Origin: Eutreptiella sp. 'Long Island Sound 2002'
Taxonomy: Eukaryota; Euglenozoa; Euglenophyceae; Eutreptiales; Eutreptiaceae
Direction: 5' to 3'
NCBI GenBank assembly: GCA_964036045.1
Contig: OZ038392.1
Coordinates: 18,672,112 to 18,736,111 of the forward strand
Length of the DNA: 64,000 bases
The position numbers and the translations under genes are program-made. Shown one piece after another: positions 6,005-58,849 of the stretch. Each line of letters opens with the position of its first letter. Position 1 is the stretch's first letter. The notes under the pieces were generated by a model, which had not been told where the DNA came from, ran no database searches, and saw only the letters and a list, made by a program, of their open reading frames with translations.

Positions 6005-6538
6005 TGCAGGAAGAAGGTCTTACCAAGGGGACGTCCTGTCCCTCCCACTGCCCTATGTCAGGTGCCTCTTGAGCCGCTCCCGCATGTGCTTGGGAACGCA
6101 TTGTCACGGCCACCCGGTCCATGTGTCCCAGGTGGGAGGGTGTCCCCACATGTGTCCATGAATAGGGCCAAATGCCCCCTCCTTTGGGCGGCAGCTCTGG
6201 GGGCTGCCCAGCCGTGTGGAGTATCTCTCACCACAAGGGGTATTGCTCCCGCTAGTCTACGGTACGACCGCCTCACCCTTGTGGCTTGAGTTGCGGGGCC
6301 ACTCTGCTTGGCAGGCGACCCCCTCCTGGACTGTGTACCGGCTCGCCTGTCACCGGTTGCTTCCATGGCTCCGGGTGACGTTTGCCATGGTCCCCGATGC
6401 AGCCTCGCCGGGCTCGGACCAGTGGCCTTGGAGTACCGCTCCTGCCACTGGCCCGGTGGGTCGGCTGGGTCGCCCCAGTGCGTCCGACCCATGGGGTGTT
6501 GGTTCTTTCCTGTCCCTCGGCCGCCCTACGTGTGTGCA

Positions 6539-9476: not shown

Positions 9477-10008
9477 TGAAAGTGCTGCCCTGGGTCGTTG
9501 AGGGTGCCGGAGGGCTCGGGGCCGGCAAGACCAGTGGGGCAGGCACGCGAGGAGTCTCCCTGGATGTTGTTATTGGGGGTAGAACCGGATACTCGTACAC
9601 CAACGGAGGCGAGAGCAGCGACAACAGAAGCAAGGTCCATGCTGATTGTGGTCCGGCAGAAAATCCCAGTCTATGAAGAAAATTGAGGGGAATTTTTCTA
9701 AATACATCTGAGTGTCCAAAACTGTCTGAAAAGATTTAAATAATCCAATTATGTAAAAATGTTTGGCCGATCTGGCCCGCGAGCGCGCGTCAGCGGCAAA
9801 TGGCGATTCCAGCTAAAATAGCGGAACGCGGCGGATTTACGGGAAATGGACCGCGGAATCAAATCCGGCATATCAGAAATATATAGGAAATATCCTGTGA
9901 CTGAGCTGCGAGGCGGCAATTCCGCCGAAGCAAAGAAAATGACCAAAATGTAGCCAATCTGGGCAGAATGTCTGAAAATCTGAGCAGATGGGGCTAGACG
10001 CACTTACA
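9477..10008 (-). repeat. E1 3' LTR (532 bp)
   Basis: Plus-strand ends TGAAAGTGC and GCACTTACA form a 9-bp imperfect terminal inverted repeat (one mismatch). It matches 49414-49945 with about two substitutions. A minus-strand TATA-like word, ATTTAAAT, lies near 9737. Confidence 0.95.
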
Positions 10009-10018
10009 CTCCCCCTCC
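10009..10018 (-). other. E1 polypurine tract
   Basis: On the minus strand, GGAGGGGGAG directly abuts the TGTAAGTGC start of the 3' LTR. This is the expected position for the plus-strand primer. Confidence 0.85.
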
Positions 10019-13396: not shown

Positions 13397-13408
13397 CCCC
13401 CCTCCTTA
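13397..13408 (-). other. E2 polypurine tract
   Basis: Minus-strand TAAGGAGGGGGG directly precedes the LTR start TGAAGCGGT. The same 12-mer plus the following nine bases occurs at the E4 3' LTR. Confidence 0.85.
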
Positions 13409-15252: not shown

Positions 15253-15978
15253 AGAAAGATGTCCTTGAATTATGCCCTAGGTCTTTTGATGTATTCCTGC
15301 AAGTTGGTTTTGTAGTGGAAAACCCCAAACCAAAGCAGCAAGTAGAGCAAGGACTGAATATGGATCGAATCAATGAAATCAATGATTGGTTTTGGAATCC
15401 AGTGTAACACAGAAGGGCTGCAGATAGACAAAGCAGGTATATGAACATAGATTCAATCACAAATGAATAATGCAAAAGGTTTTAAAAGAAAATTGGTCAG
15501 ACTCTAGCCTCAGTGGTTGCAATAGGCACTTCATGTGCACTCTTTTGGGTGAAATGGTGCTGGTTAGGACTGAGGGGCATAGATGTCAGGACCACACAGA
15601 AAATGACTTGGCCAAGCAACTGAATTCAGAAACAGTTACAAAGTAGGACCACAATAAGTGGTAGATTCAATTGAGTATAGGGGTCTTGGGGTGGGAGACC
15701 ACTTAGGCTTAACCTCCAAGGCCCACAAGCATGGAATGCCTGATTTATTTTGGTATGACCTCCATGAAGGAAGGTACCTCCGCTCAGTTGAGTGGTAGGG
15801 GTGAACTTCATGGGGGGGGCTAGGGTCACAACCCTAGTTACCTTGAGAAAGTGTACTTTAGGCCACAAAAGAGAGATAAAAACACTTAAGTTTGTCTCAG
15901 CATCAACAAAGGGTTTTAAGGGGGGCTTCGCCTGGATCAAGCCCTCCAAGAAAGACATGGCAGTGACTTTTTCTTACT
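15253..15978 (-). repeat. E3 3' LTR (726 bp)
   Basis: It starts AGTAAG and ends CTTTCT on the minus strand. It differs from the 5' copy at the terminal base (15253 A, 25618 G) and at one internal site near 15706. The ends are delimited independently by the target duplication and the polypurine tract. Confidence 0.93.
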
Positions 15979-23364: not shown

Positions 23365-25539
23365 CTATTCCTCATCAGGGAATTTCACATCCACTCCTGC
23401 AGCCATGAGGGACTTGGCCATCCAGGCCAAGCGCCTCTTTTTAGAATTATTCCCCTCAGGGGTAGCGTTATCCCCTTGGGGTCGCTTCTGGGGGACACCT
23501 GCGGCAGGAGCGGGTGTGGCAGCAGGAGTAGGCGTAGCAACAGGCGCTGATGAGCGCCTCTGGGGGTTAGGGGGTCCAGTCTTACCACCCCCCTTGCCAC
23601 CTCCTTTACCTTTATCCCCATTCGGGGGATTCCTGGCGGGCGTCGGGTTCTTCTGGCGCTCCGCCTCCTGACGCTTGAGTTTGTCACTCTCGCGTTTCTT
23701 GATGTGGCATTCGTCCTCATAGTGACGACGCTTGCCACAGTAACCACAGGTGATGGTACACCTGAAGTGGTCCTGATGGGTCACAGTTTTCCCATCTTTA
23801 GTATGCTGCTGACGTTTCATCTGCAGCATACAGCCACTGCGAAGATCGCAGTCAGAGGCATGACAAGGTCCCCCCTTGTCATTGACAGGTCGGCAGTAAA
23901 ACAGGGGGGGGGTGCCTGCATCAGTTGGAACCTCGTTCATGGCACGTAGGTTGCCCCTCCCTTTACCGCCTCCCTGGTTGGTGTTAGTGGGATTTTTATG
24001 CCCCTTCCCTTCGCCACGTTCAGGGGTAGGGGTACCACCTCGTCCCAAGTGTTTCTTGAGGAACTTCTCCATGTGGGAGTCGTTCTCTCTCTCAAGAGCT
24101 AGCTCAATCAAGAGATCCACCAGTGTATCATACGAGTGGGTCCTGCTCTTCCTCTCAGAGGTTGAGCGGCAATCATCCCACGTACGCTGGGGGATCTTAC
24201 TCATGAGCCACAGGTGGGGCTCAGTGGCTCCGTAGGAGCCCACATTCATCCTCGAAAATAAGTACTCCATGTCGCACACATACTCAGAAATTCGCGCAGC
24301 GGATGGAAACTCCGGGAGCATAGGTAGCTCCTCGATTTGTGTGCGTACGCTGAGGTCAGTCTCATAGACTGGGAATGTTTTCTCTAACCTCAGGAGTACC
24401 TCCGCCCAAGTAGAACAGGTTTTCACAATCTGTTTGACCTGTTTTTGCAAAAATTTCTTTTTGCATGAGCGTTTTAGCAGTGAACATTTGGTGGCCACAT
24501 CCACATGGGATTGGCCAGTCAACAAAAGGAACTCCGCAAATTCTTCTGCCCATTCTGGCAGGTTTTTAGGGTCGAACTCCGGCAGTTCCAGCTGGATGTT
24601 CGCCTGGGCAATCGGTCTGCCCATCTTCCCACCCCCCGGAGTTAGGCCTGAAGGCGACACGCCGGCAAGTGGGGCCAGGGCTGACAGCCCTCTTCTCTCA
24701 CTCTCTGTGACAGGCACGTCCTGTAGGTCCGCCATAGGCACAGTCCTGGCACGGGGGTGAAAGGGGCTGGGGCAGGTAACCTTAGGCAACAGCCTTGAGA
24801 CCCTCGATCTCTTGAGATCTTCGGCCAAGGTACTCAGCCCTGGAGAGAGAGAGAGGAACTCAGGCTTGGGTAAGGGTTCTGCAATACCCAGTTTAGCCTT
24901 AATGGCCTCTGATAAGGCCGTCACATCTGGATCTTCTGATCCAGACAGGAATTTGGCCAGCAGCTCGGCCGTTTGATCCAGGGCACCGTAGGTTGGCCTT
25001 GGATGATGTTCTTCGACTCGAGTTGGGCCCACTTCGGGAGCCCTTGGGGTTGGGTACTCAGGTCGTAGTCGTCTTGGCAGGGATGCAGTAGACGGAGGGC
25101 CTGAGTGTGAGTAGGACCCTAGATCCGTACGTGGTCTTGACCCATGTACAGCCAGTGGTTCCTCTCCATCTTCCCCACGGATGGATTTGTAGTACTCATC
25201 GTGCATGATGTACTCATCCATCTTCATCTTCAGCTTCTCATATTCCTCAGGTCCTTCAATGGCAGTTGAGGATGAAGCTGGGCAATTGGATCGTGATACT
25301 GAAGCAGCCACACGTCTGTGGAGGTGACTGAAGCTGTCTCCACCGTGTGCTGCTAAGGCCTCGGTGGTAAGGCCTTTATTCTTCTCCGCCCTTCTGCGTT
25401 CTGGATCTCCTTGGGACCCAGATGCACCACTGAGGTGATGTGGTGCTCGGTGTGGTGGTTCACTCATTGGGTGGACCACACTGCCCATTTGTACTTGGAC
25501 AGTTCGGATAGGCCAGGTCCTTACACTTGGTGTGGACAT
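23365..25539 (-). CDS. gag: E3 Gag
   Basis: The structural protein that would form the virus-like particle. The first ATG after the PBS is at 25539. The open frame extends 20 codons further upstream only through a non-ATG codon. The N-terminal third is Pro/Ser-rich and charged. A capsid-like region follows (IQLELPEFDPKNLPEWAEEF is its start). The nucleocapsid has a zinc knuckle, CGYCGKRRHYEDEC, of form CX2CX4HX4C, then a Lys/Gly-rich tail. The stop is UAG, with Pol continuing in the same frame, so Gag-Pol would be made by readthrough. Confidence 0.9.
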   Translation of the reverse strand: MSTPSVRTWPIRTVQVQMGSVVHPMSEPPHRAPHHLSGASGSQGDPERRRAEKNKGLTTEALAAHGGDSFSHLHRRVAASVSRSNCPASSSTAIEGPEEYEKLKMKMDEYIMHDEYYKSIRGEDGEEPLAVHGSRPRTDLGSYSHSGPPSTASLPRRLRPEYPTPRAPEVGPTRVEEHHPRPTYGALDQTAELLAKFLSGSEDPDVTALSEAIKAKLGIAEPLPKPEFLSLSPGLSTLAEDLKRSRVSRLLPKVTCPSPFHPRARTVPMADLQDVPVTESERRGLSALAPLAGVSPSGLTPGGGKMGRPIAQANIQLELPEFDPKNLPEWAEEFAEFLLLTGQSHVDVATKCSLLKRSCKKKFLQKQVKQIVKTCSTWAEVLLRLEKTFPVYETDLSVRTQIEELPMLPEFPSAARISEYVCDMEYLFSRMNVGSYGATEPHLWLMSKIPQRTWDDCRSTSERKSRTHSYDTLVDLLIELALERENDSHMEKFLKKHLGRGGTPTPERGEGKGHKNPTNTNQGGGKGRGNLRAMNEVPTDAGTPPLFYCRPVNDKGGPCHASDCDLRSGCMLQMKRQQHTKDGKTVTHQDHFRCTITCGYCGKRRHYEDECHIKKRESDKLKRQEAERQKNPTPARNPPNGDKGKGGGKGGGKTGPPNPQRRSSAPVATPTPAATPAPAAGVPQKRPQGDNATPEGNNSKKRRLAWMAKSLMAAGVDVKFPDEE

Positions 25540-25605
25540 TATGGACTTTTTGTTGAGCTTTTGTTCTGCACTTCTCAGGGTCGGTTCAAAAGGTCTCAAG
25601 GGACT

Positions 25606-25617: not shown

Positions 25618-26343
25618 GGAAAGATGTCCTTGAATTATGCCCTAGGTCTTTTGATGTATTCCTGCAAGTTGGTTTTGTAGTGGAAAACCCCAAACCAAAG
25701 CAGCAAGTAGAGCAAGGACTGAATATGGATCGAATCAATGAAATCAATGATTGGTTTTGGAATCCAGTGTAACACAGAAGGGCTGCAGATAGACAAAGCA
25801 GGTATATGAACATAGATTCAATCACAAATGAATAATGCAAAAGGTTTTAAAAGAAAATTGGTCAGACTCTAGCCTCAGTGGTTGCAATAGGCACTTCATG
25901 TGCACTCTTTTGGGTGAAATGGTGCTGGTTAGGACTGAGGGGCATAGATGTCAGGACCACACAGAAAATGACTTGGCCAAGCAACTGAATTCAGAAACAG
26001 TTACAAAGTAGGACCACAATAAGTGGTAGATTCAATTGAGTATAGGGGTCTTGGGGTGGGAGACCACCTAGGCTTAACCTCCAAGGCCCACAAGCATGGA
26101 ATGCCTGATTTATTTTGGTATGACCTCCATGAAGGAAGGTACCTCCGCTCAGTTGAGTGGTAGGGGTGAACTTCATGGGGGGGGCTAGGGTCACAACCCT
26201 AGTTACCTTGAGAAAGTGTACTTTAGGCCACAAAAGAGAGATAAAAACACTTAAGTTTGTCTCAGCATCAACAAAGGGTTTTAAGGGGGGCTTCGCCTGG
26301 ATCAAGCCCTCCAAGAAAGACATGGCAGTGACTTTTTCTTACT
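25618..26343 (-). repeat. E3 5' LTR (726 bp)
   Basis: The copy next to the PBS and gag. It interrupts the E2 pol frame at 26344. The open frame running from E2 Pol into this LTR ends shortly after with KKKSLPCLSWRA, which is LTR sequence and not protein. Confidence 0.93.
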
Positions 26344-35331: not shown

Positions 35332-37059
35332 GGCAGCGGGGGCGTAGATGGTCTCGAAGTCCTTGATGTGCACTCGTTCAATTCAACGAACTGGTTGTGG
35401 TTGTTGAGGAGGGTGCTGCAGCACTGGATTGGAAGTGCGGCTGGTGCTGGTCAGCCGGTGGTTGTGGAGGTGGTTGACGCGGCCTTGCTGGTCGGCCGAT
35501 GGGACTCCGGGTCGGCCGATGGGGCTGATGCAGGAGTCCTGGTCTGTGCACCTCTTTCACGGTTGCTGCGCGGTCAGGGCGATGCGCTGGACGGCGCTGC
35601 GGGCTCCGTGACGAACTCGGCGCTGTCGCTGAGTGGCGCTGCGAGCCGCTGCGCTGCGCTGCGAGACGCTGCGCTGCGCTGCGAGCTGCGAGCTGCGCCG
35701 CGCTGCTGCGACGCGCTGCTCGGGGTTGGTGGCCCCGAGTGGCACGCGAGGGCTGGGTAACCCCGCGGCGGTGAAACGCTTTTGACGCGTTCCCGTGGGG
35801 GGCCGGCCACGGGACGCTGCGGTGACACGCACAGGTGAGCAGGCAGGCAAGGCACTACGCTCACAAGGGCATCAATACGCTCGTGTCATGTGACAAAGCG
35901 TTTCAGAATCCTTGCCACTCTGCAAAGAGGGAACAAAAGTATGTACAACAACACATCAGGATATGTACACATGGGGTTAAGACTGGACTGGGGTAAGGGC
36001 ATCACAGGACCATAGACACTCAGTCCCAACTCATATCCCAATCCCAGGTCCGACCCTCTCAGTGGCTGATGGGGGCAGGGGCTCAAACACAACCCATGCC
36101 CTGCTCAGTCCGGACCCTGAAACCCTGCCAATGGGAGAGGTATCCTACCTAGCCACAGGCGAGTTCCTGGGAACCAAGGGGCTCCAAGGTCAACCGACAG
36201 TGGCTCCCTATGCTCCCCCAACGGCACGTCCCAACTCCACTCTGAGCCAGAGATATGGCCCCGCCATTATCCCTCAGGAGTTGGTAGCTGAAAATGGGCT
36301 GTTTCAGCCCAAACTGAAATTAGCTTAAAAAACTCCAAAATTGACCCCTTGTCTGGACCCGCCAGAGGTAGGGACGAGGCAACTGACCCTATGCCTTTCG
36401 AGTACGAACTCCCTGGAGCCCTCACCCAACTTGGTTCCCTCTGAGGTCCCGGCATCAGGGCAACACGGATGAGTCAAGTGGGGTCATGATGCCAAAATCA
36501 CCAAAATTGGCGTCATTCCCACGCGTGGCTCGCCCGGCCAAGGTAAGGCCAATGGCTCACAGGGTAGGAGGCAGGACCTAGGACTTATATCTGAGTGTAC
36601 AACGTAAATTTGGGTCCGGGCTCCCTATGGGCTTAGAGAAATGGGGCCGCAAATTGACCACACGGAAGGGGGAAATTGGGGTCCCAAAATTGGGTCATTT
36701 TGGCTGCTTGAAATGAGCCAAAATTCGGTGTGCTCCCAATAGTATATCTCCACGCCGGCTTGGAGATCAGATCCGCCATTCCATACGCGATCCACCCGGA
36801 GTCCAACGGAGACTCCCATGACTTTGGCTCTGATAGATCTCCATGCCGCTTGGCGTGGTGACGATCCCAATTGGGTCCACAAATGCCAAAATGGCAAAAT
36901 TGCCCATACTCAATTTGGCCTAGCGCCTTAACGAAGGCGGCTCCGCTTCGCCCACGTGGTGTGTGGACCATGGGGACCATTACCCATAACACCCATGTCA
37001 TATATGGTCCATCGGTCCATGCGTCCGGCGTGCACGAGGGTTAGAACATAGTGCACGGC
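35332..37059 (-). other. E2 leader between 5' LTR and gag
   Basis: 1.7 kb with no recognised gene. It includes a GCTGCG-rich microsatellite at about 35620-35720. No tRNA-complementary primer site is evident beside the LTR (minus strand CGCCGTGCACTATG), which leaves E2's priming mechanism unexplained. Confidence 0.5.
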
Positions 37060-38728
37060 GGGCAGCGAAAGTGGAAAATTGCTCAAAATGGCCAAAAATG
37101 CGCACACTCATGGTTAAGGCAAATGAGGCACATGCCCGACTTGGACCGGAGTGTGCCATAGGGTTGATATCAAGTCATATGTGTCGGACATATCTTTGGG
37201 GCGTCGCCCAACTCCTCCGGTATCGGGGATGGCAGGGTCGCCAAGTGAGCCCATGATTTGGGATAGTCCCAAATCGCCAACATGGCGGCCACGGTATGCC
37301 AAGCCTAAGAGGAGTTATTCGCCGGGTCCAAGATATGTTGGCTACCGAAGTATGTACCCTCATAACATACTTGGGTCATGATGTCAATTGAGCGCAACGT
37401 TGAGATACACGGTCGCCACTTGACATCATGACGAGCCAAAAATGGCAAAATTGGCACAATGACACACAAAAGTGCCTTGAAAGGCGCACAATTATATTAT
37501 AATATCTTCGGCTTGGATCGTGCAATCAACTAATCCTTCTAAACACAATGACTTGACACCACTGACCTTCGATCCCACATATGTGCTCCACTTGGGGCGC
37601 TTTGAAAGGTTACGAGCGCTGCCTTCCAAGTGGGCACATGAAAATATGCAAAATTGTAAAACACACACCTTGCTCCCAACGCATCGCTTCGGGATCACCA
37701 CACAAGCTTCCCTTCACGAAGGTTAGGCTTGCAATTGACCGTAGGGAGTATGGAGAAGGGGCTTGCACAATATGAGGTCCATTGGCGGGCTTGGCTTGGA
37801 GTAATGGACCCGCCAAATGGGCACGCAACACAACACATGGCACATACCACACATTGCCCAAAAAGGTAGCTCCCACCACGATATGTCATGCCCCTCCAAG
37901 GGCATAACTTTGTGTCAATCGCTCATAGGAACTCAAGGAGAGTTCCTATGCAACACCAACACTTGCGCGCTACACTCGAAAGTTATCTTAACGCACGCAA
38001 TATCATGGCCAAAGAGTTATAACGCAAACTCTACCCTCTTGACCATGATCCATTACACTAGCGCGCACGTGTGGAAACGCAAGGCATATAAAGCTTCCTA
38101 AATTACGTCGGGAGTATTGTGAATACATCCCACGTTTCCTTATTGTCAATACTCGCAAGCGGCACGAGATATGACCCTCACAAGTGGCCTCACGAATCAA
38201 CTTTGTTTTGCCCATATCTCTGAGTCAAACGGAGGGCAAGATAAAAAGGAAGTTGATTCGTGCATAGGGAAGCACGTAGGTCCACTCGAAAGAGGTCAAA
38301 TCAAGTGCGGGGATGTCGAAGTCGAAAATCCGATTTCGACATCCTGAAAAATTCGGATTAAAATTGCGAGTATTAATTATGAAAATTGCGGAAGAATCCA
38401 TGCAGTTCCTGGCGACTTTGGAGCCTTCGTGACGGATAGCGTTAAAATTTCCATTATAAACAGTTAAACTGGCGGTTACGGTAAAGTCGCGAGCCAACCG
38501 CCAGCAGTCAAAACAGTGAATATCAGAACGGAAGCATAAAAATTGACGGAAACAATATGAAAATAAAACCCTGTTGATTCCTGATATTCTGATACACAAA
38601 TCTCCGCTGGCGGTGCATCGGTTGCCGATGCGGGGCTTCACGGCACGGAACACGCCGTGCATGGGGTTAGTGGACCGGAGACCGGTTGTATGCCGTAACC
38701 TGGCCATGGGGTTCTGGGTACCGCTTCA
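37060..38728 (-). repeat. E2 5' LTR (about 1669 bp)
   Basis: It matches 11728-13396. Its minus-strand start TGAAGCGGT joins E1 pol so that the LTR's first three bases (TGA) act as the stop codon of the truncated E1 Pol frame. Confidence 0.9.
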
Positions 38729-41700
38729 CTGCAAATCAGCGGCCGAACTCGAAGCTTGGTCCTCATTTGGCTCCTGGGCTGGCCTGACCGCAGGAGGGGG
38801 GATCGACGGATCAGCCCTGGAATGTGGCTGCTGAGGGCCGTAAAAGGCTGGATCTCGATTCACCACAGGTCGTTTTCCGTCGCTCTCCACTTGTCTGTCT
38901 GGTTTCGACAAACAATCTGTCAGGAGTACTCCAATTTCGGGGTGCTTCTTGAGGAAGTCGATGAACCCCTTGGTGTACCCATGGACAAAAGATTGGGCTG
39001 GTTCCCAGTTGTTGTGACTGGAATCAAAGCCCCTCCACTCACACAGAAATTCCCATTCGCCCTTGGCGTCACGTCTTGCTTCAACAATCCTCTTGAGTTC
39101 GTACTTTCCCCCTTCGATGACCCGATCAGACAAATGTTTCGCAGTCCAAAAAAGGGGTTTAACCCGATCCTTGGGGGAGGGGATCTCTCTCTTGAGGCGA
39201 TCGCCCGAAACGTCAATTTCCCTGCTGACATCCACACGAATCCTCCACCTGTTCTCACCAAGACGCGCTGTAACAGCGAATGGCCCCTCCCACAAGGGAA
39301 GAAGCTTGTCATCTCCGTCTAGGGTGGTTTCGGATTTTCGAAGCCAAACTCGATCATCGACTTCAAAATTGTGGGGGTTTTTTCGGCCTTGATTTTGGAC
39401 CCAAAGCCAGTCAGCTTGATGCTTCTCGATTAATTTCGACACAGTTTTATCTGCTCGTTGGACTTCGTCCAAAAACAGCGAAGCATCTTTACAGGGGCGA
39501 GGATTATTCAACGGCATGTTCCACCAACACTTCTTTCGTCCAAAGACAATTTCATTTGGAGAAAGGCCATGATACAAAGGCGTGTTGTGGTAACGGCGAA
39601 GCATGGCGAACAGAATCTCAAGCCAATGGAAATCCTTTTCACTCGCGAGCTCCTTACGAAGCATATTTATAAGTGAGCGGCCGGCTCTTTCGCCAGGCAG
39701 CGCTCGATGCGAGTGGATTTCACATCGGAGGTGGTGGATTCCAAGGCGAGCACATAATTCTCTCCACCATTCGGAGGTGTACTCTTTGCCTGAATCCGTC
39801 ACCACCTCGGATGGGACGTCCCAGCCTCCCATCCAGGTCTGCGCGCACCATTTGGCGGCAGCCTTGCCAGTCATCGACTCAATGTTGCAAGGCAACATTT
39901 GAATGTAGCCGGAATGACGGCACTGAATAAGGAGCACACCATTGACTTTTTTATTAGTCCAATGGCACTCTTCGTCATCGAGCTCACCGAGATAGAAAAA
40001 ATCACTCGTGACTCTGTTAAAGAGGCGCTCCGGAATAGGATGAGGCCTCAGATGGCCGTGCTTCTTCGCGCTGGGGGGCGTCGAGACAGCACATTGGGCA
40101 CATCCGGCGGCTACTTTCATGCAGTGAGTATATAGCCGTGAGCCAAACAACCTATGTTTAATCATCGACCACAGTCGACGGCCATGTGCGTGGGGGGACT
40201 CCCATTTATGCCACCAGTTTAACACTCGAGGGGCTAGGGCGTCTGGCACACACAATTTACCCTCCATCCACAGCTTCCCCCCATCCAACGAGTACTCAGG
40301 AAAAATCCCATCCTTGTGAGCATCTTTGGATTTGAGATTTCCAAAGACCTCTTTAAACATGGGATCCTGCAGGTAATCGGACGTCCAGTCACGGATTATC
40401 AGGGAATCTTTAGGCAGGGGTGGAGTTTTGGCCGGATCTCGACGCTTAATGCCTTGGATCAACCGAAATCGACTTACTCGTCGGGTATAGTCAAACCGTT
40501 TCACACTCCCTGAGGAGGGATCGGTGACTTTCTCCACGACTTTCAGTGTTTTGGTGCAGATCTCATGGGCATGCGCCGGATCTGAGATGGCCGTGATGTC
40601 GTGACACGGCAATGCGTGCTGTTTAACAGCGCACTGCATGCATGCACGTCGAATGAGTTTCTTTTCTTCCTGATCCCATTCGATGATGACATGGCGGTCC
40701 TGCTCCGTACCATGGATGTTGGTACTTTGCAACCCCTCTGAGGCGGGGTAAGCCCATCGGCTCAGAGCATCCGCTACCGTGTTGTGTTTTCCAGGCAAAT
40801 ACGACACATGGAGGTCAAACAGACTGAGAAATTCGTGCCATCTGGCCCGTCGGCCAGCTGGGCTCGCGACAGTATCAATGTGTTCAGTGGCCCAATACTC
40901 CAGAGATCGATGATCCGTCAGGACCTCGACTCGATTGGTGCCAACCCACGATTGGTACTTTTTTAAAGCACAGATGATGGCGTAGGTTTCTTGCTCACGC
41001 GGCGACCATTGCATTTGGCGTGGGGCTAGCTTCCGAGACCAAAATGCAAGAGGGTAATGATCGCCGGTGGCCTCATCAACCTGTTCAAGAACAGCTCCGA
41101 TCGCGTACCTAGAAGCGTCGGTTCTAATGTAGAAGGGTCGGTCAAATTGGGGCACATGCAACGTGGCGACTTCACAGAGGGCCGCCTTCAAGTGATGGAA
41201 GGCCTCCTCGCACTCGTCAGTCCACTTGACACGAACCTTTGAACCTGCCTTGCCCGCATCTCTCCCTACCTTCAATAATTCAGTGAGGGAGGCAGCAAAT
41301 TTGGCATAATTCGGCACAAAAGTGTGGTAAAAATTGCAACAACCCAGGAATCCTCTCAACTCCGTGATCGTCTCAGGGCGCTTCCACTTCTGAATAGCGA
41401 CGAGCTTCCCTGGACTGGGTCGTCGGGTGCCATTCTCTAGGAGAGAACCACAAAATTCGACTGATTTGAAAAATAATTTTTCCTTCTTTGGCCCACAAAT
41501 CAGCTGATTGGCGTCAAGAATGTCCAAAACTTGGTTCAGCTGCTTCTCATGTAGGGCCACCAGCTCGGCTTCGGTCAGTCCCTCCCCTTCCGTCGCGATG
41601 ATTATGTCATCTATGTACACGCTCACGAAGGCACGAAGCTCAGGATGGGTTGTGAACAGCACATCCTCCATCATTCTTTGAAAAAATGAGGGGGCGTTCT

Positions 41701-45869: not shown

Positions 45870-46771
45870 TGAAGGATATTTGGGGGGAGGGCATCCTCGA
45901 AGCTTCCCTTCACGGCATGCACGACCTCATAACCCCAAACCCATGAACAACAAGTCTTCCACTTGCATTCACGCTTGTCCAAAGGATTCTGTGATCCTTG
46001 CCTCGGCCATGACACAATCTGGCGTCCTGGGCAAGGAGATGAAGGTATATGTAGACAAAGTAAATATGTAGACAAGTAATATGTACAAGTAACAATTCTA
46101 TACTATAAAATAGCATAAAAAAAGAAGACGAAATGAAGGCGACGGCGTCGCCGCCATCAGAAAATCTGACGGCTACGAGGCGTCGCCATCAGGATCTCCA
46201 CTGAGATCCTGCCCAAACTGGGCCAACCAGTGGTTTTTGGGCGAAAAACAATGAAATAAAATGATTTTTGAGTCAAAAACACTCATTTTGCGCGTCTCCC
46301 CCCAACGCGTAGCGTAAGCGACGCGACGCGTTTCTGTGCCAATTCAACCTACATATGAAAAGGCCCACTGTTGGGCTGCGCCATAGGCGTCTGAGCGATT
46401 CCTGGAATCGCCTCAGCATTTTTTGAAAAATGCGTGAACGCGCCACTTTTCGCAAAAATGGACCTTCGCGGAACGCCGCGAAAAAGGTCACGCTATAATC
46501 TTTTATTCCTAAAAACGATAAAACAATAATAAAATTGCCTAGAATCTTTAGAAATCGAGGAATAAATCCTCGTTCTGGAGCTGCGTCGCGCAGGCGACGA
46601 CTGTCGTCGCCAGCCCAAAAAAGACGTAAAATGTCGATTTCTGGGGTATTTTACAGAAATCCCACAGAAATCAGGATGCCGTAGCATCCACAGGAAAATT
46701 CCTGATCTGGCCTGGCGAAGAGCGCCACAGGCTGTGCAGCGGGTATGGGTGAAGCACCCCATACCGCTTCA
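45870..46771 (-). repeat. E4 3' LTR (902 bp)
   Basis: Plus-strand ends TGAAGGATAT and ATACCGCTTCA give a 5-bp perfect terminal inverted repeat, TGAAG/CTTCA. I saw no difference from the 5' copy. Confidence 0.95.
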
Positions 46772-47661: not shown

Positions 47662-48563
47662 TGAAGGATATTTGGGGGGAGGGCATCCTCGAAGCTTCCC
47701 TTCACGGCATGCACGACCTCATAACCCCAAACCCATGAACAACAAGTCTTCCACTTGCATTCACGCTTGTCCAAAGGATTCTGTGATCCTTGCCTCGGCC
47801 ATGACACAATCTGGCGTCCTGGGCAAGGAGATGAAGGTATATGTAGACAAAGTAAATATGTAGACAAGTAATATGTACAAGTAACAATTCTATACTATAA
47901 AATAGCATAAAAAAAGAAGACGAAATGAAGGCGACGGCGTCGCCGCCATCAGAAAATCTGACGGCTACGAGGCGTCGCCATCAGGATCTCCACTGAGATC
48001 CTGCCCAAACTGGGCCAACCAGTGGTTTTTGGGCGAAAAACAATGAAATAAAATGATTTTTGAGTCAAAAACACTCATTTTGCGCGTCTCCCCCCAACGC
48101 GTAGCGTAAGCGACGCGACGCGTTTCTGTGCCAATTCAACCTACATATGAAAAGGCCCACTGTTGGGCTGCGCCATAGGCGTCTGAGCGATTCCTGGAAT
48201 CGCCTCAGCATTTTTTGAAAAATGCGTGAACGCGCCACTTTTCGCAAAAATGGACCTTCGCGGAACGCCGCGAAAAAGGTCACGCTATAATCTTTTATTC
48301 CTAAAAACGATAAAACAATAATAAAATTGCCTAGAATCTTTAGAAATCGAGGAATAAATCCTCGTTCTGGAGCTGCGTCGCGCAGGCGACGACTGTCGTC
48401 GCCAGCCCAAAAAAGACGTAAAATGTCGATTTCTGGGGTATTTTACAGAAATCCCACAGAAATCAGGATGCCGTAGCATCCACAGGAAAATTCCTGATCT
48501 GGCCTGGCGAAGAGCGCCACAGGCTGTGCAGCGGGTATGGGTGAAGCACCCCATACCGCTTCA
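47662..48563 (-). repeat. E4 5' LTR (902 bp)
   Basis: The second LTR copy, followed on the right by the TGAG duplication and E1 gag sequence. Confidence 0.95.
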
Positions 48564-49401: not shown

Positions 49402-49413
49402 CCTCTGCTACCA
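49402..49413 (-). other. E1 primer-binding site, initiator tRNA-Met
   Basis: The plus strand CCTCTGCTACCA lies immediately beside the 5' LTR. It equals the known last 12 nt of common eukaryotic initiator tRNA-Met including CCA, so minus-strand DNA would be primed from that tRNA. Confidence 0.88.
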
Positions 49414-49945
49414 TGAAAGTGCTGCCCTGGGTCGTTGAGGGTGCCGGAGGGCTCGGGGCCGGCAAGACCAGTGGGGCAGGCACGCGAGGAGTCTCCCTGG
49501 ATGTTGTTATTGGGGGTAGAACCGGATACTCGTACACCAACGGAGGCGAGAGCAGCGACAACAGAAGCAAGGTCCATGCTGATTGTGGTCCGGCAGAAAA
49601 TCCCAGTCTATGAAGAAAATTGAGGGGAATTATTCTAAATACATCTGAGTGTCCAAAACTGTCTGAAAAGATTTAAATAATCCAATTATGTAAAAATGTT
49701 TGGCCGATCTGGCCCGCGAGCGCGCGTCAGCGGCAAATGGCGATTCCAGCTAAAATAGCGGAACGCGGCGGATTTACGGGAAATGGACCGCGGAATCAAA
49801 TCCGGCATATCAGAAATATATAGGAAATATCCTGTGACTGAGCTGCGAGGCGGCAATTCCGCCGAAGCAAAGAAAATGACCAAAATGTAGCCAATCTGGG
49901 CAGAATGTCTGAAAATCTGAGCAGATGGGGCTAGCCGCACTTACA
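49414..49945 (-). repeat. E1 5' LTR (532 bp)
   Basis: The partner of 9477-10008, bounded by the PBS on one side and the CATAA target duplication on the other. Confidence 0.95.
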
Positions 49946-50284
49946 CATAAATCCGACGGTATCCGAGCTGATAATTTGCACCTGCCATGGACGAACCCAA
50001 CCAATAGCCATCGCACCAATGCGGTCCTTGGTCACTGAAAACAAGTAGGACTTCGTTGACTCTGTCCGCTGCGATCGGTCCAGAACAGGTGGGTTGCTTT
50101 GCGCAGCAAAAAAGATCATGTCGCGAAATTCTGCCTCCACATTACAAGCCTTGAAAAAAATTGGAGCATTGCCATTGGAGCTCAGCCGGGGCAGTTGGAG
50201 TGGACACGAGCGGGTGCTGTGCCCACAGGCCTCGAGAGATGTCCAGAAAATGAGCAAAAGTATGCCCAAAAGCATCAAAAGCAC
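49946..50284 (-). pseudogene. arylsulfotransferase-like gene, 5' part (split by E1)
   Basis: The ATG at 50284 begins a clear signal peptide (MLLMLLGILLLIFW followed by small and polar residues). About 113 codons precede the E1 insertion. The frame continues exactly in 8320-9471 when E1 and one CATAA copy are removed, which shows that the two halves were one uninterrupted coding exon. As it stands the frame runs a few codons into the E1 LTR and stops at 49931. The host allele is therefore knocked out unless another copy exists. Confidence 0.75.
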
Positions 50285-51075: not shown

Positions 51076-51189
51076 AGAAGTTTCTGAAACTTATTTTTCT
51101 GATATTGTGACCACACAACATGACCATCAAACCTATGTAAACCATGTTTTAGGCTGTATTTATGTGTTCTCCACCTTATTTGGGTATTG
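51076..51189. repeat. ~114-bp direct repeat, copy 1
   Basis: It shares AAGTTTC-GAAACT, TGTGACCACACAA, CCTATGTAAA and TTATTTGGGTATTG with 51279-51391, about 203 bp away. Confidence 0.8.
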
Positions 51190-51206
51190 GGGGTGGGTGG
51201 GTTGGG

Positions 51207-51262
51207 GGGGGGGGGGGCTCCCAAGGGATTGGTACACAACCTGTCTATGCAGTGTTTCAGCC
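51207..51262. repeat. poly-G-anchored dispersed repeat, copy A
   Basis: A G-run is followed by GATTGGTACACAACCTG and ATGCAGT. A related copy, with its G-run and the same phrase, lies at 58601-58660. Confidence 0.7.
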
Positions 51263-51278: not shown

Positions 51279-51391
51279 CGAAGTTTCCGAAACTCATTTT
51301 TTTGATTATGTGACCACACAAAATAACCATCCAACCTATGTAAAGCATGTTTTAGGCTGTATCTATGTGTTTTCACCTTATTTGGGTATTG
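51279..51391. repeat. ~114-bp direct repeat, copy 2
   Basis: The diverged second copy of 51076-51189. Confidence 0.8.
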
Positions 51392-51922
51392 CTTAGTCGA
51401 ACCAAGTGTCCACCCGGAAAACCTGCCTCCGGCTATCTAAATCGTGACAGGCGAACCGAAAAAAGTCGAGCTACAGCACCGAAATTTGAAGTAACAAAAA
51501 ATTTTACCTCGATTTCCGGTCTGTGAGACACAAACTGAGGAAAAACGTAGCCGAAAAACAATAGTCAAAAGTGGGGTATTTACTATGGGAAGGGAAGAAA
51601 TGTGGTGGGAGAACCTCGAAATCGGGGGTAGGAGACATAGCTGATTTGTAGGGGGTAGGGTAGATGGGAAAATTGAGATGGACAATTGAAAACATTTTAA
51701 AAACCTCGTGGAAACCTGACAGTTATTGACAACACATAAACGTCACACGCAAAACAGGCACGCAGAGCATAGGGCCAAAACGAATAAGGACAATTTCTGA
51801 TGATCTCTTTCAAATGATGCCATCTGTGTACTCGGTGATTGTGCCGAGCAGCTCAAGGAGTGCTCACTTCAAGTAACGATGAGCCTTTCAGCAGTGAAAG
51901 ACATATTACTCCGGGCAAGATG

Positions 51923-52095
51923 CTATCGAAATTTCGATAGCATAATATAGAAAGGAATCTGTCGTCGATGCCTATCGAAATCTCGATAGGATTAAAACAT
52001 AAAAATCTGACAGGCGGGGGCCAATCGAAATTTCGATTGACGAAAACACAGCATCGGTGGTCATCGAAACACGGTTTCTATCAAAATTTCGATAG
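51923..52095. repeat. palindrome cluster 1 (4 copies)
   Basis: 18-bp units at 51923, 51972, 52022 and 52078, downstream of the unknown gene. The core is ATCGAAATTTCGAT. The first is CTATCGAAATTTCGATAG and the third CAATCGAAATTTCGATTG, both perfect 18-bp palindromes. The second and fourth each have one mismatch. Confidence 0.95.
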
Positions 52096-52160
52096 AGAAA
52101 GCAACACCATATCACCAGGAGAAATAAAAAACGGAGACTAAAATTATGACATATGCTCGA

Positions 52161-55095
52161 TTACTTCTTGGTGGTAGCCCGACTCGGATGAGAATCCTTG
52201 TGAGGCGAGCCCTTCTTCTTGGGCTGATCTGTAGCAGCCTTCGACAACTTGGCCTGAAAATCAGCAAAAGCAGACTTCTTCTTCTCTTTTTCCTTCTGTG
52301 CTCCTTCTTTCTTACCTTTCGCCGATTCTTTTGCCGCCTGCTTTGCTGCTTCCTTCGCCGCCTTTTCCGATTCCTTCTGCAGAGGAAGGGTGAAAGAATG
52401 ATTAAAGAAAAAAAAACATCGAGGCAGATATGTAGATATAAACAGACATACTTTCTCCTGAGCAGTAGCTTTTTTCTCTTCTTTCGTCAAGGCCTTGCTG
52501 ACTTTTTTCTCAGCGTCCTTCGCTGCCTTCGCTTGACCCTTGACTGTGTCCTTGTCTTCGTCATCGTCCGAAGAATCTTTGGCAGAACAAATAGTGAAGG
52601 AGAGGAACAAGACAAATTTGATGAGGTGTCTTTCAATGCATACCTTCGTCAGTGTCAGGAGCCTCAAGGGGATAACCCCGCTTCATTCGGTCGAGAACAA
52701 GATCCCATTGGATCGGTGGTAGGGCCTGTACCCTTTGAAGGCCAGCTGAAACTGTAAGAAAAAGCAGAAAAAATGAGTTGAGGAGTTGATTGTACTAGCG
52801 GAGGAAGGGATGCCTTGAAACATACCATCATCAGCAAATTTCGTCAATTGTTCTTTGCTTGGAGCCGTTGACAAACCAAGAAGAACGGCAACGTTAACGT
52901 GAGAACGGAGACGAAGCCGGATGTTGCTCACCAGTACGGGAGATGTAGTCTGAACCGCAACCCAGATCTCCTTGACGCTTTCTTCGATAACATCCAATTT
53001 GAGTTGATGCATGATGCAGCCCAGAATCTCTGGAGGGAATCGATTGTCATCTTCGGCCGGATTGTTGTACCGCTCGTCTTCGAAGGTAATGTACCTCGGG
53101 GGCTAAAAGAAAAACAATCGAAATTTCGATAGGAGAAAGTACGCAAAGCGACGCTATCGAAATTTCAATAGAACACACCTTCCATTCTTTGATATGGCGC
53201 AATGTCAAGACAACGAGCTGGGAAGTTGCCATGGTGTAATTGCTGGTCAAAATCCCCTTATTGTACAACGCGATGTCCCTGGTATAGAACTCATCATCCG
53301 TTGACGCAGAGATGGCGTTCAGAACAACGCGGACGTCAGGACGATCTCCAACCAAAAGCAGAACGGGCATCAACTCCTCATCAAGGACGTAAGACAACAT
53401 CATTGGACACAGGGGGCGTCCCGCAGCGGTACCCTTCGGAATCTGATAGACGAGAATCCTCTGTTTCAGTCCAGAGATTGCAGCAGGGGTTGCACCGACA
53501 GCTGGCCCGATGCGGACTTCACAGACTGCCTCTCCGGGTTTGGTTTCACCAAGCGTTACTGTCAGACATTCTGCCGACGTACTTTTGATCACAGGCTTCA
53601 CCTTCGGTTGACTGAGGGATTCGCGGAGGGTCTTAAAATCCTCATCAGACCAGATGGGGGCCTTGCTGATGGTCGTCCAAGGCGCCAAAGGATGCTGTTC
53701 GGTCCACTTCCAGCGCGGGATATGCACCTTGGAATCCTGGGGTGACAGTGATGACGTTATTCTCTTCCACTCCGCAAATTTTTTCCGAGACTCGTGCACG
53801 AAGGGGTTGTCCGGATGTTCCAAATGCCAAGAACAACTTCGCTGCTCCCGAAGTCTCCGAACGAAGGTCTTAAGCAATGGTGGCGTCAGATCTCCTTCCA
53901 GCAGCCTGTCACAAACCTTTGAAGATATGTCCGAAGATGACTGTGTTGTTTTAAATAACAATGACGCAAAGAAAGTAACTACCTGCGCAATCTCCGGCGG
54001 ATACAATCCCTCAAGCGGCTTGTAGTTGTTGAACACCGGGTTCAACTCGTCCTTCCCCTGAAGCTCGACGAGTTTCGGAATGATCGCTTTGTCCTCAACT
54101 TGGGAAACAAAACTTGCAAGAACCGTCCATCGCTTTGCAACTTCTTCGTCTGTGCCGTGCACGGCAGTGTATCCGGTCTTGTGCATCATTGTCAGTGTTG
54201 CGGCCTTTGGGGTAGGTACTCCTGCATAGATAATAAGGAAAGAATTGGTGACGTAATGTTAATCGAAGTGGACCCGCTATCGAAATTTCGATAAAGACCT
54301 TTGAGGTGACACTCGGTGAAGAGGCGATGGAGTCGTTGCTCAAACGTATGCTCAGATCCGCCATGGGATGCCCGGTTGTGATGCCCAGCGAGGGTTTGTC
54401 GAATCCAAAAGGGTGTGTCCGCACTCAAAATCAACCCGTCGTACATCCTTGTCCAATGAGGCGGTGTCTTGCCTTCTTCTTCGTACTTCTTTCGTACATC
54501 CTGGGTCCATTCGAAAGCATGTTGTCCACCAGGACACTTGAATGTAGCGCCTGACGAGGAATCGTACAATCGAAATTTCGATAGAAGGTACGATGTAATC
54601 GTCCGTAACGCAGCACGGTAATCAATCGAAATTTCGATAGCAAGGTATGCCTGTTGGAAAGAGTAAACACTTGATGTATTTGTCCTTCGGTGGTGGAGCA
54701 GCAAGGATGTCATCACCAACCAACGCTTTCTTCTTGGTAGTAACCGTTCTTGTTTGGCCGAAGCTCATGTCGCGGTCCAGTTCGATCTTCGAGTAATGAA
54801 CAAGTTCTCGGGACTCAACCCAATCGTCCAGATAGACCTGAGAAGTATCGTGCCATTCCTCAACCTCTGCGGATGTCGCTGGTCTGCTCTGCTCTGCAAC
54901 GATCTTCTTCTTCTTCTTCGGTGGAGGGGACTGTGAGAAAAGCGCGGCCTCGGAAGTATCCGTTCGGGGGCTTGCAGTGTCCGTTGACTGCGAATACGTT
55001 TGAGATGGAGGCTCATCAGAGTCCCCTGCCGGCTGCGACCGCTTCTTCTTCTTCTTGATCCGCTTCTTCGGTGACAAATGGGACTCACCGGACAT
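52161..55095 (-). CDS. eight-exon gene of unknown function, Lys-rich ends
   Basis: Proposed exons (minus strand): 55095-54651, 54550-54299, 54221-53983, 53916-53179, 53102-52826, 52751-52644, 52576-52452, 52376-52161. Intron 3 (53917-53982, 66 nt, frame-neutral) may instead be retained. Introns are 66-100 nt. Most are GT-AG with GTATGT-like donors; intron 1 appears to be GC-AG (CAG/GCATAC). The total is divisible by three and every junction keeps frame, giving about 800-820 residues ending in TAA. The N-terminus is polybasic (SPKKRIKKKKKR, then PPPKKKKK), suggesting nuclear localisation. The middle is globular with no family I recognise (TFKCPGGQHAFEW, LEGLYPPEIAQ). Near the C-terminus are an acidic DSSDDDEDKD stretch and an Ala/Lys-rich helical tail. 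Introns 1, 2 and 4 carry the palindrome. The start is the first ATG in frame; more upstream exons are possible. Confidence 0.75.
53115..53171. repeat. palindrome cluster 2 (2 copies inside intron 4)
   Basis: Units at 53115-53132 and 53154-53171 fill 36 of the 76 nt of the intron at 53103-53178, leaving only the splice sites and a short spacer. Confidence 0.95.
54277..54640. repeat. palindrome cluster 3 (3 copies, introns 1 and 2)
   Basis: One unit at 54277-54294 lies in the 77-nt intron 2. Two units at 54567-54584 and 54623-54640 lie in the 100-nt intron 1. The exon between them has none. Confidence 0.95.
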
Positions 55096-55303
55096 TGGGC
55101 AAATGTACTGAGGGTGATTAACGAGGTAAAACCTGTGCGCAAACGAGCTGAGGAACTCGCAAATGGACGATTGGGGCGACGAAAGTGCTACTTTGCTTGT
55201 GAGACCGGATATTTCTGTGAAGGTTTTTCAGTACCTCTAAATGTGAAGCGATAAGCTCAGATTCATCGGTTACGTCCAACTTAGAGTCCATATCTCGTAA
55301 ATG

Positions 55304-55550
55304 CAATCGAAATTTCGATTGAGGCAGTGGTCTATCGAAATTTCGATAGACCGCAGACGAGATACCGAGAAACGTTGTCTGATCAGGTTTACATAGACTT
55401 CGAAGGAGATGAAATAGATCCGATATGCATAAAATAGATCGAAGGAGCATTGGACCAAGCAAAGAAAGGGTTTTACATGATGAAACGATTCGATCAAGTA
55501 CTTACGCACTGAAATTGCAACAAACAAATGCGCAATCGAAATTTCGATAA
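55304..55550. repeat. palindrome cluster 4 (3 copies, between the two genes)
   Basis: Units at 55304, 55332 and 55533. The first two are perfect 18-bp palindromes of the two flavours, CAA...TTG and CTA...TAG, only 10 bp apart. Confidence 0.95.
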
Positions 55551-55606
55551 GCGACTCAAATCTCAATGTTCAGCGGCAAGAAGCCGCGGACCTTCGGCCT
55601 CATCAA

Positions 55607-57645
55607 CTATATGTTCGTCGTCCTCATCAGGTTCGCTCTCGCTGGATGGCGGGTCAAAGAGGGCAGGAGGCGGGCCTCGTGGCTGTCTACGAAGGCGTCC
55701 CTGGTATCTGTCCGGAGGGGGATAGCTTCAAGCGACCGTGTTGTCTGTAGTTTTTTCCAAGCTTTCACATAGGAAACACGATCAGCAAGAGGTGTTCTAG
55801 GAATGTGGGTCATATATTGATGGATTCCCTCTGTGACATCTCCGTGTTTGCACATTAACTTGAGAGCCCAAATCATGCACATATCAAGTAAGGGGGAATC
55901 AACAGTTAAGTCAAGTGGAGGAAGGTAACTGGGATCCCATAAAGGATCAGGTGTAACTGTCCTGTGTTTGGTCTCGAACCGTGTGAACGGCGTGTTGATA
56001 TCCGCAGCCCGTTGAACAAATGAACGTATCGTAATAACAAAATGTGTAACGAGATGTGGCTGGACCGAAGATCTGAGAACCCGTTCTTTCTGCAAGGGGG
56101 GAAGGGTGCAGTAAACATCACTTGCGCGAGAAAGATCTGTGACGTGTGGCAGCAGGGTGAGAGCATGTCCCAAACGTGACAAAGAGGCTTCACAACTTTC
56201 CTCAACGAACAGACAACCAGGAACCATGTCATACCATAACTGCCATGTACCGAGTGCAGTGCATAAGGTCCGAACATACTCTATCTTGGGAGCATGCTTC
56301 CGTGTAAGGGAGACCAGTAAAAGCAGACAATGTTCAAGAACAGTGCGTGCGGTCTTCCCAGAAATCCAGAGCAGCCCCCGCCCAAGTACATTCTCGAACC
56401 CCATACCCAATGGCCCAGAGTGCAGGTGTGAAAACATACAACACACTGTACAGGGACTGAATCTTTTGATATGCCACAGTGTTTTCAAGATTCATTGGTC
56501 GTCTGAGGGTCGACAATCTATCTCTAGCTTCGGTAATAAGACCTTTCAACACGCTGCCCGCTAACAAAAGACCGGCAAAACCTTTTCCGTGTATATGAGC
56601 TTCCGATGACAAGGCATGCTAGTCCGCACCGTGATAAATGGTTTGAGCAGCCAAGAAATAACGGGAAAGAAACGCCTGAAAGTAATGTGTACACAGTATT
56701 TGTACGGATGCCAAATGCCATAAAGCAGTGGAATGCGTTCCAAATGTGACCGGTAGTCAAAACTTCTGAGCTTCGCACCGTACATGAAACACAACACCGA
56801 TGCATGTATTTTCATGTCGACCAGCAAAGGCAAATCCCGGCCCGTATGAATCTGTATGCGACGCATCATCTCAATTAACTGCAGCAGCTCAGTGTTTGTG
56901 CTTGTTCGACACTCGTCCAGCAGCATAGGTTTCCAAATTTGTGGATGCACAATACCTCTGGCGATGTCGAGTGGCGCACGGATGAAAGGTGCCTGTAACG
57001 TCCCATCCGTAACAGCTGCAATAGTGTTCAGTAGACCCCCGATGGAGGTCCGAATGCATCTCATGACACCTGGCAGTCTGAAAACTATGCGGCGCAATGT
57101 GAGATGTCCAGGAAATCGGGGCAGCAAGATTGTAAAGAGCACGGCTACGGCAGAACAGTCAAGATGTCCAGGCGGTCCATCGGGGTTCTGCAGGAATCGT
57201 TTTCTGAAAAAATTGTCCATCCAAATGCCAACAGAAGCAATGCTCATTGCATTCCAGAGGTCATTCGAGAGATTCCTGCAGAGTCGGTATTCGAGGTGGA
57301 ACTATGCCAAACCTTGCGAGTAACTTCCGTTCGCGCTGCGAAACAGTAATGTCCAGAGCCGGGCGAAAAAGCGAGGGGTGCCGCACGCAGGTGCAGCACA
57401 CGCCAGATGTTGAAGAGCTCCTGCTGGAGTACGCTGAGCCATCTGGGCAAAGGTGTACAGTTTCTGTTTGCAACCACCTGCTCAAATGTCTGGCGGCGGC
57501 GTTTGGTTATCCTTATTCCAAGGACAAATTCAACAAATCGCCTTGACGTACCGCCTTCGCAAGCATCTTCAATAATTTGGCGTCCATTCTCCCAAGAGTG
57601 CGAAGCGAGGAATCCTCGCACGTAGGCAATGAAATGGCCATCCAT
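55607..57645 (-). pseudogene. frameshifted gene of unknown function
   Basis: A protein-like series of minus-strand frames forms one product if three frame changes are allowed: near 57275, near 56605 (at an AAAAGG run) and near 56400 (at a GGGG run). Order: N-terminal part from the ATG at 57645 (MDGHFIAYVRGFL), middle part (WNAMSIASVGIWMDNFF, LLDECRTSTNTELLQLIEMM, GIWHPYKYCVHITFRRFFP), then a C-terminal part to the stop at 55607. The WHPYKY...RFFP signature resembles, from memory, a large hypothetical-protein family of dinoflagellate and other protist genomes. That is unverified. At least two shifts sit in homopolymers, so base-call error is possible. However, the neighbouring 5-kb pol frames are clean, which favours a real pseudogene. 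Confidence 0.6.
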
Positions 57646-57730
57646 CTTTGGCGTACATGAAACTCGTACATGAAATAGAAGACAACAAATAGTCTAGCAT
57701 TTAAAATCTTTGAAATCTGTCAGACTGTCA

Positions 57731-57911
57731 CTATCGAAAATTCGATTGCAGTTTAAACAGCCTATGCTTTACAGGGTAGTTATTCCTTTAGCGGCTATCT
57801 AAATTTCGATTGGACATTCCTATCGAAATTTCGATAGGAATTGAATTCCTTTTCTGTCGAATGCTCCTATCAAAATTTTGATTCGAGATGCTCCTATCGA
57901 AATTTCGATTG
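57731..57911. repeat. palindrome cluster 5 (5 copies, upstream of the frameshifted gene)
   Basis: Units at 57731, 57795, 57820, 57867 and 57894. Those at 57820 and 57894 have the perfect 14-bp core; the others carry one to three changes. Confidence 0.93.
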
Positions 57912-58118
57912 GTTTTAGAAATAAATCGATTGTGTAGACATCTCCATCGGATAAAACATTCATATGTGTTTGATTTATTTTACCTCTTATTTCTTTTACC
58001 TTTATTTTTCTACAAAGTTGTAATTTAAAATTCATATACTACTGTAGTACAACTATGTTCCGGTAAACCTTCGTGAAGGATTTTCATGGTTTGCTCTTTG
58101 AATGTCGTTAAAGACTTC

Positions 58119-58288
58119 CAATCGAAATTTCGATTGATCCATGCAAAGCAAATTGTCACGTAGCTTCGACAATCGAAATTTCGATAGCATCATTGCTTTT
58201 TCATTCTAATTTTCACATACACAGACTATCAGGAGTCGGGTGGACAAACAGTTTGATGTAGCTAATCGTGCAACCAAAGTTTCGATAC
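58119..58288. repeat. palindrome cluster 6 (3 copies)
   Basis: Units at 58119 (perfect CAA...TTG), 58170 (CAA...TAG) and a decayed one at 58271. These are the last copies in the window. Confidence 0.9.
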
Positions 58289-58600
58289 ATGAGACTTCCT
58301 GCCTACATTGTGAACTTCCCTGCGTCTCTTTGCTATTCGAACAACAAACAACATGCAGCAATTCAAATGAAACACACTGAAGTGCATATATGCATGCGCG
58401 TGGTAACACGGTGGTACACAGCTGCTCATGTACTTGCACAACCACTGTCTTTTTAGGACATTTCTTCTTTCCCGGGATTGGCTTCATGTTTTTTAACCGT
58501 GTTTTTCGCACCGTGTGACATGTCCCTTTTTTGGTCCACTTTCCGGTGACAGGGGCCCATTTTGGGTGGACACTTGGTTCGTCTAAGTATTGGGCACGCG

Positions 58601-58660
58601 CGGGGGGGGGGGGGGGCGTTCCCAAATGATTGGTACACAACCTGCTGATGCAGTTTTTCA
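58601..58660. repeat. poly-G-anchored dispersed repeat, copy B
   Basis: A G-run followed by CCCAAATGATTGGTACACAACCTG and ATGCAGT, related to 51207-51262. Confidence 0.7.
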
Positions 58661-58849
58661 CCCTTCTACTACCTGATGACGCGTTTACGACGATCCAAGA
58701 GGCACACAAAATTCCAGTCAGGCCCATATGGCGGTGCCCGAACACTTTGCACGGGCGGGCCTTGGGAAACGCGGGCCATGTCAGTGTTGCACTTTCTATC
58801 CGGAACTCTTGTGTGCCAATGGATTTGTTATCCATCTACCAAAAGCACG

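Follow-up and report, generated by a model that had tools for sequence, protein, structure and literature searches.

The 64,000-nucleotide (nt) stretch of Eutreptiella sp. 'Long Island Sound 2002' analyzed here (contig OZ038392.1, positions 18,672,112 to 18,736,111; hereafter the window) contains 20 copies of a short palindrome scattered around two genes on the minus strand, and both the genes and the palindromes sit inside a single DNA transposon of 7,196 base pairs (bp). The features of this element are listed below in window coordinates, where TIR stands for terminal inverted repeat, TSD for target site duplication, and P numbers designate relatives of its two genes on public contigs.

51077..51262, plus strand: undisrupted tandem unit of the target repeat, representing the paralogous empty site, from alignment with the joined flanks
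51387..51391, unstranded: left TSD TATTG, directly outside the left TIR
51392..58587, unstranded: whole DNA transposon, from its TIRs, TSD, and paralogous empty site
51392..51415, plus strand: left TIR, CTTAGTCGAACCAAGTGTCCACCC, complementary to the right end
51925..52093, unstranded: four palindromes (51925, 51974, 52024, 52080) in non-coding DNA 3' of gene 1, from motif matching
52161..55095, minus strand: gene 1, 8 exons, 801 amino acids (aa), from a gene model with seven GT-AG introns and from relatives P0012-P0016
53103..53178, minus strand: intron 4 in the gene model, 76 nt, with palindromes 53117 and 53156, at positions common to P0012 and P0014
54222..54298, minus strand: intron 2 in the gene model, 77 nt, with palindrome 54279, at a position common to P0002 and P0016
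54551..54668, minus strand: intron 1 in the gene model, 118 nt, weak donor, with palindromes 54569 and 54625; P0016 has three palindrome-like peptides here
55306..55548, unstranded: three intergenic palindromes (55306, 55334, 55535) upstream of gene 1, from motif matching
55566..57645, minus strand: gene 2, candidate transposase (start 57645, end about 55566), from tblastn of P0001 and from homologues
57733..58286, unstranded: eight palindromes (57733, 57797, 57822, 57869, 57896, 58121, 58172, and a weak copy at 58273) upstream of gene 2
58564..58587, minus strand: right TIR, complementary to the left end
58588..58592, unstranded: right TSD TATTG, directly outside the right TIR

The two TIRs are 96% complementary over 24 nt, and when the sequences flanking the element are joined with a single TATTG, they align across the junction to the neighboring unit of a tandem repeat with 158 of 186 identities (85%, 3 gaps), providing an empty site that is paralogous (a neighboring repeat unit) rather than allelic. 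Given the TIRs, the 5-bp TSD, and the empty site, 51392-58587 is therefore an inserted DNA transposon, and it is all but certain that the palindrome island is its interior, as all 20 copies lie within these limits. A third copy of the TIR was not found in the window (18-mer, up to 3 mismatches), nor was any Rfam match at the gathering threshold in 51300-58700. An earlier interpretation made from the letters of the window (the sequence-only reading) had described the palindromes but missed the TIRs, the TSD, the empty site, and the frameshifted gene 2. The location of the island inside one DNA transposon is the key fact of the locus, and with it the odd "island in introns" becomes a delimited mobile element.

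The palindromes share a 14-bp core, ATCGAAATTTCGAT, the 20 copies of which extend from 51925 to 58286. Motif matching against shuffled sequence confirmed the number originally reported, with 13 perfect copies, five single-change copies, one that differs at two positions, and, at 58273, a marginal 20th copy with three changes. Allowing up to three mismatches, the whole window contains 27 core matches, 20 of which are inside the island, compared to a mean of 2.23 in shuffled windows, none of which (0 of 100) reached 27. The claim that the motif occurs nowhere else in the window holds for copies with 0-1 mismatch, none of which lies outside the island, but it fails at 2-3 mismatches, where seven matches (one with 2 mismatches and six with 3) were found, approximately the chance level. 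In a census of perfect palindromes of 10, 12, and 14 bp across the window, the core was the commonest by far with 13 copies, and only two other 14-bp perfect palindromes are present, each occurring once. Two of the copies in the right block, 57869 and 57896 (within 57861-57910), are spaced 27 bp apart and have their left flanks in common, as if tandem-duplicated, and in one of this pair both CpGs are changed symmetrically to CA and TG.

The palindromes keep to non-coding DNA. Of the 6,366 bp of the island, 4,489 (70.5%) are coding if the full extent of the frameshifted gene 2 is included, and 0 of the 20 palindromes touch them (P about 2e-11 for uniform placement), in agreement with the earlier statement that all copies avoid exons covering ~70% of the interval. 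Among the non-coding sectors, the left block contains four palindromes, the introns five, the DNA between the genes three, and the right block eight, an even density over the four sectors (chi-square p = 0.80). Put another way, 15 of the 20 lie outside introns, 12 are in the two outer non-coding blocks, and eight are deep inside the element, in the introns and the middle. The outermost 533 bp on the left and 301 bp on the right have none, and the p-value for these bare ends is 0.0006 for uniform placement over non-coding DNA and 5e-5 (1/20,000) by Monte Carlo, both post hoc.

The exon-intron structure of gene 1 is a sequence-based model in which the donor of intron 1 is weak, and this seven-intron model agrees with the earlier assignment of two, one, and two palindromes to introns 1, 2, and 4; introns 3, 5, 6, and 7 have none. 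The predicted product is rich in lysine and arginine at both ends (21% and 30%, vs 13% in the middle), and we consider it a candidate DNA-binding regulator. In a protein search, the 801-aa sequence (residues 70-700 scored) had no match in the top 8,000 candidates. The main gene-1 exon as the query retrieved five relatives, including P0012 (37 cluster members, 97% identical), and a profile of this exon produced one chance-level match in the PDB (E value 1.9). For both genes, the relatives are on public contigs of different lengths, possibly from several assemblies, and cluster sizes do not equate to copy number per genome.

The copy of gene 2 in the window is fragmented, with its parts spread over three reading frames; P0001 (45 cluster members) is a relative of 697 aa without interruptions. 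There are 11 related proteins among the 7,999 best candidates. Of these, P0004-P0010 form a diverged group with identities of 29-41% (the cluster of P0004 has 267 members), and P0011 is 24% identical. A GxWHxYKxCV block is invariant in all eight aligned relatives, and a possible catalytic D is present in six of the eight rows, replaced by N in P0001 and H in P0007. On this basis gene 2 is a candidate transposase gene, possibly of the DDE type; it has no Pfam family above cut-off (there are a few weak sub-threshold matches) and no PDB match by profile, and its AlphaFold model is too poor for use (mean predicted local distance difference test score, pLDDT, 35). In P0002, a portion of gene 2 is fused to a stretch of gene 1 that includes intron 2, an arrangement suggestive of an internally deleted copy. 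P0009 and P0010 are chimeric open reading frames (ORFs) of the P0004-P0010 group and may join that second family to a partner gene of its own; a tie between their tails and gene 1 was considered but not established (E values 0.01 to 0.6, single comparisons). No relatives of the element's genes were found in viral contigs. A search of viral and prokaryote contigs for exact palindromes in pairs, from which records close to the window's own genome may be excluded, likewise found none. There is a single lone 18-mer match in a viral contig, L001.

The palindromes also recur in other copies of the element. Their conservation could be read from ORFs that run through the introns in those copies, at the amino acid level, where silent changes are hidden. 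P0012 (96-97% identical) and P0002 keep the palindrome peptides, and as both are too close to be informative they were excluded from the count. P0014 and P0016, probably one diverged copy since the longest contigs of the two are equal in length (880,950), carry a palindrome-like peptide at each of the five positions occupied in introns, with a residue change in one. Between this diverged copy and the window's element, 24 of 25 palindrome residues are identical, vs 29 of 49 in the other alignable intron sequence (p = 0.0005). Intron 1 of P0016 has a third palindrome where the window's element has two, so the number of palindromes appears to change while the motif stays. We regard this conservation as supportive, not as proof.

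Two types of flank occur on each side of the core, and the left and right choices are independent (Fisher p = 1.0), with complementary letters at the ±1 flank positions in 10 of the 20 copies and 10.3 expected, which bears out the description of the flank types as freely mixed. Beyond two bases out, a by-eye listing revealed no common flank letters. Because the flank letters are independent, two half-sites bound by a dimer would fit the data better than an RNA hairpin. Six of the ten core changes are at the four CpG positions (p = 0.04), five of these six being transitions, which suggests methylation-type decay.

Taken together, these results are consistent with a model in which each palindrome consists of two TTTCGAT[A/T]G half-sites for a dimeric DNA-binding protein. 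A dimeric protein was one of four ideas put forward in the sequence-only reading and provides the best fit among them, considering the independent half-sites, the presence of intergenic and terminal copies as well as intronic ones, and the recurrence in a diverged copy, although binding as such is inferred. That the palindromes are protein-binding sites of some kind is probable. The likeliest binder would be the element's own gene-1 product, but we place this identification slightly short of an even chance. The gene-1 protein would bind the non-coding DNA of members of its own family in order to regulate them, most plausibly by maintaining their expression or shielding them from silencing, in the manner of VANC with VANDAL21, or alternatively by repressing or coordinating them, as TnpA does for Spm. 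The sites may be confined to non-coding DNA because only there could they be kept without altering a protein. Anti-silencing as the main role is suggested by analogy to VANC and is a tentative proposal that we consider rather doubtful. The model as a whole, that of dispersed regulator sites with the gene-1 product as the leading candidate for the regulator, appears to us evenly balanced between right and wrong.

Several observations weigh against this model. For gene 1, Pfam yielded no family above cut-off (a few weak sub-threshold matches aside), no DNA-binding domain was recognized, and the regulator role assigned to the gene is based on its being the element's other gene and on its basic ends. 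Three of the seven introns hold all five intronic copies, a somewhat tighter grouping than chance would give (Monte Carlo 0.028). The copies at 51925, 55334, and 57822 are perfect palindromes of 24, 24, and 26 bp, respectively, and the symmetric extension summed over the copies is borderline (31 vs 21.9 in shuffles, p = 0.057), a pattern in keeping with a structural role. The conservation alignment is a manual one of amino acid sequences, from which the middle of intron 1 was omitted as it could not be aligned, and the comparison probably draws on a single diverged copy. Finally, the CpG observed/expected ratio of the element (0.99, vs 0.74 outside) is a weak hint that would fit either low methylation or a different base composition, and it is not decisive.

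The alternative that survives best is that the sites are read by a host protein, such as a transcription factor, an insulator protein, or a silencing factor, either recruited by the element or used by the host to recognize it. A palindrome with independent half-sites would suit any dimer, and nothing in these data ties the site to gene 1. However, sites of this kind would be expected at host targets, and the 64-kilobase (kb) window has no copy with 0-1 mismatch outside the island. We consider a host reader unlikely. Less likely still is a role in excision, in which a transposase or accessory protein would bind many sites in order to bring the ends of the element together, as at the TnpA sites of Spm/En and other CACTA elements. 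The 12 palindromes in the two outer non-coding blocks would be in keeping with such a role, and CACTA elements, as described in PMC2613891, have alongside the transposase a DNA-binding protein, which reads repeated subterminal motifs. End-joining sites would be expected nearer the ends, though, and the bare ends therefore count against this role, as do the eight copies deep inside the element, a TIR that begins CTTAG rather than CACTA, and a TSD of 5 bp.

It is improbable that the palindromes act at the RNA level, as pre-mRNA stems that would help splicing or make double-stranded RNA. When five of the seven introns were folded as RNA, strong stems appeared in the two-copy introns 1 and 4, which fold far better than shuffles (z -3.66 and -4.49, respectively), and only there; the three copies with perfect symmetry over 24-26 bp could likewise be counted in favor of an RNA role. 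Yet such stems follow from the presence of two copies of one palindrome in an intron, and intron 2, with its one copy, shows no gain in folding over shuffles (z +0.50). The hairpin idea of the sequence-only reading is weakened further by the absence of the motif from four of the seven introns, by the 15 copies outside introns, and by flanks that do not preserve pairing. Marginally less probable again is a micro-parasite, an 18-bp palindrome that spreads by itself and is tolerated only in non-coding DNA. The differing copy number in intron 1 (three in P0016, two here) and the lack of common flank letters beyond two bases, judged by eye, could be expected of a spreading unit, but the tiny mobile inserts once envisaged should leave target duplications, and none accompany the units (flanking direct repeats of 0-3 bp, four unit lengths tried). 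Within the window, the palindromes are found in one element only, the 57869/57896 pair looks more like the product of tandem duplication (27 bp) than of insertion, and old positions are retained more than spacers. The idea that the palindromes are seeds from which introns arose is rejected, as the motif is absent from four of the seven introns and most copies are non-intronic.

Among known systems, the layout of the element appears closest to that of VANDAL21. PMC5735166 describes VANC21 as located mainly in the introns, intergenic DNA, and terminal non-coding regions of VANDAL21 and as binding a short, non-palindromic nine-base motif, YAGTATTAY, that often occurs in tandem repeats, with much weaker binding of coding probes; motif number varies among copies of the VANDAL21 family (PMC5735166, PMC10398659). 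Both systems are thus multi-gene DNA transposons with many short motifs in introns, intergenic DNA, and terminal non-coding DNA, in which the motif is missing from coding DNA (for VANDAL21, from the coding DNA tested) and its copy number varies between family members. In contrast, the motif described here is a 14-18 bp palindrome and is mostly not in tandem. Pfam scans of both genes returned no matches to VANC domains (DUF1985, DUF287) or to Mutator transposases. By the features compared (no Pfam match, a palindromic motif, and little tandem repetition), the element is not a VANDAL.

Other systems share individual features with the element. Introner elements have a short repeated sequence inside small introns, and the element resembles them in having a short repeat within small introns, but here the repeat is only part of the intron, most copies are non-intronic, and the same gene has introns free of the repeat. 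Spm/En and other CACTA elements, as described in PMC2613891, resemble the element in combining a transposase-type gene and a DNA-binding function (both candidates here) with many copies of a short motif, whereas the element has a non-CACTA TIR, a TSD of 5 bp rather than 3, and sites that are absent from its ends and present in its introns. Judged from these features, it is evidently not a CACTA element. KDZ, Plavaka, and TET/JBP are names of Pfam entries, and scans of genes 1 and 2 returned matches to none of them. The pairing of a large, poorly annotated transposase (here a candidate) with a partner gene is shared with Zisupton/KDZ and other fungal TIR elements, according to PMC12730594, which gives the Zisupton TSD as 8 bp, compared to 5 bp here. 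A literature search with three forms of the motif sequence matched a single paper, an unrelated one on small interfering RNA (siRNA).

The means by which transposons evade silencing while leaving other silenced DNA undisturbed are still being worked out, and VANC of Arabidopsis is a well-studied example. It is conceivable, if improbable, that an unclassified two-gene TIR superfamily has evolved self-recognition independently of the plant VANDALs, with the gene-1 protein binding dispersed palindromes, including those in introns, to counter host silencing. An element outside the Pfam families, with a palindromic motif in every non-coding sector and a candidate partner gene, would make convergent self-recognition directly testable.

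The remainder of the window contains several other repeats. A 1.68-kb direct repeat (11722-13397 / 37055-38729; 99.1% identical, 25 kb apart) probably represents the long terminal repeats (LTRs) of a retroelement within which others are nested, and a 725-bp direct repeat (15254-15978 / 25619-26343; 99.9% identical) surrounds retroelement ORFs (18562-25599) and probably marks a young LTR retrotransposon. The two copies of a 534-bp direct repeat (9476-10009 / 49413-49946), 40 kb apart and 99.6% identical, may be the outermost LTRs of a set of nested insertions, and a 902-bp direct repeat (45870-46771 / 47662-48563) is 100% identical over a separation of 1.8 kb. At 6532-7096, a tandem repeat with a period of ~65 bp lies within overlapping plus-strand ORFs that encode repeated peptides.

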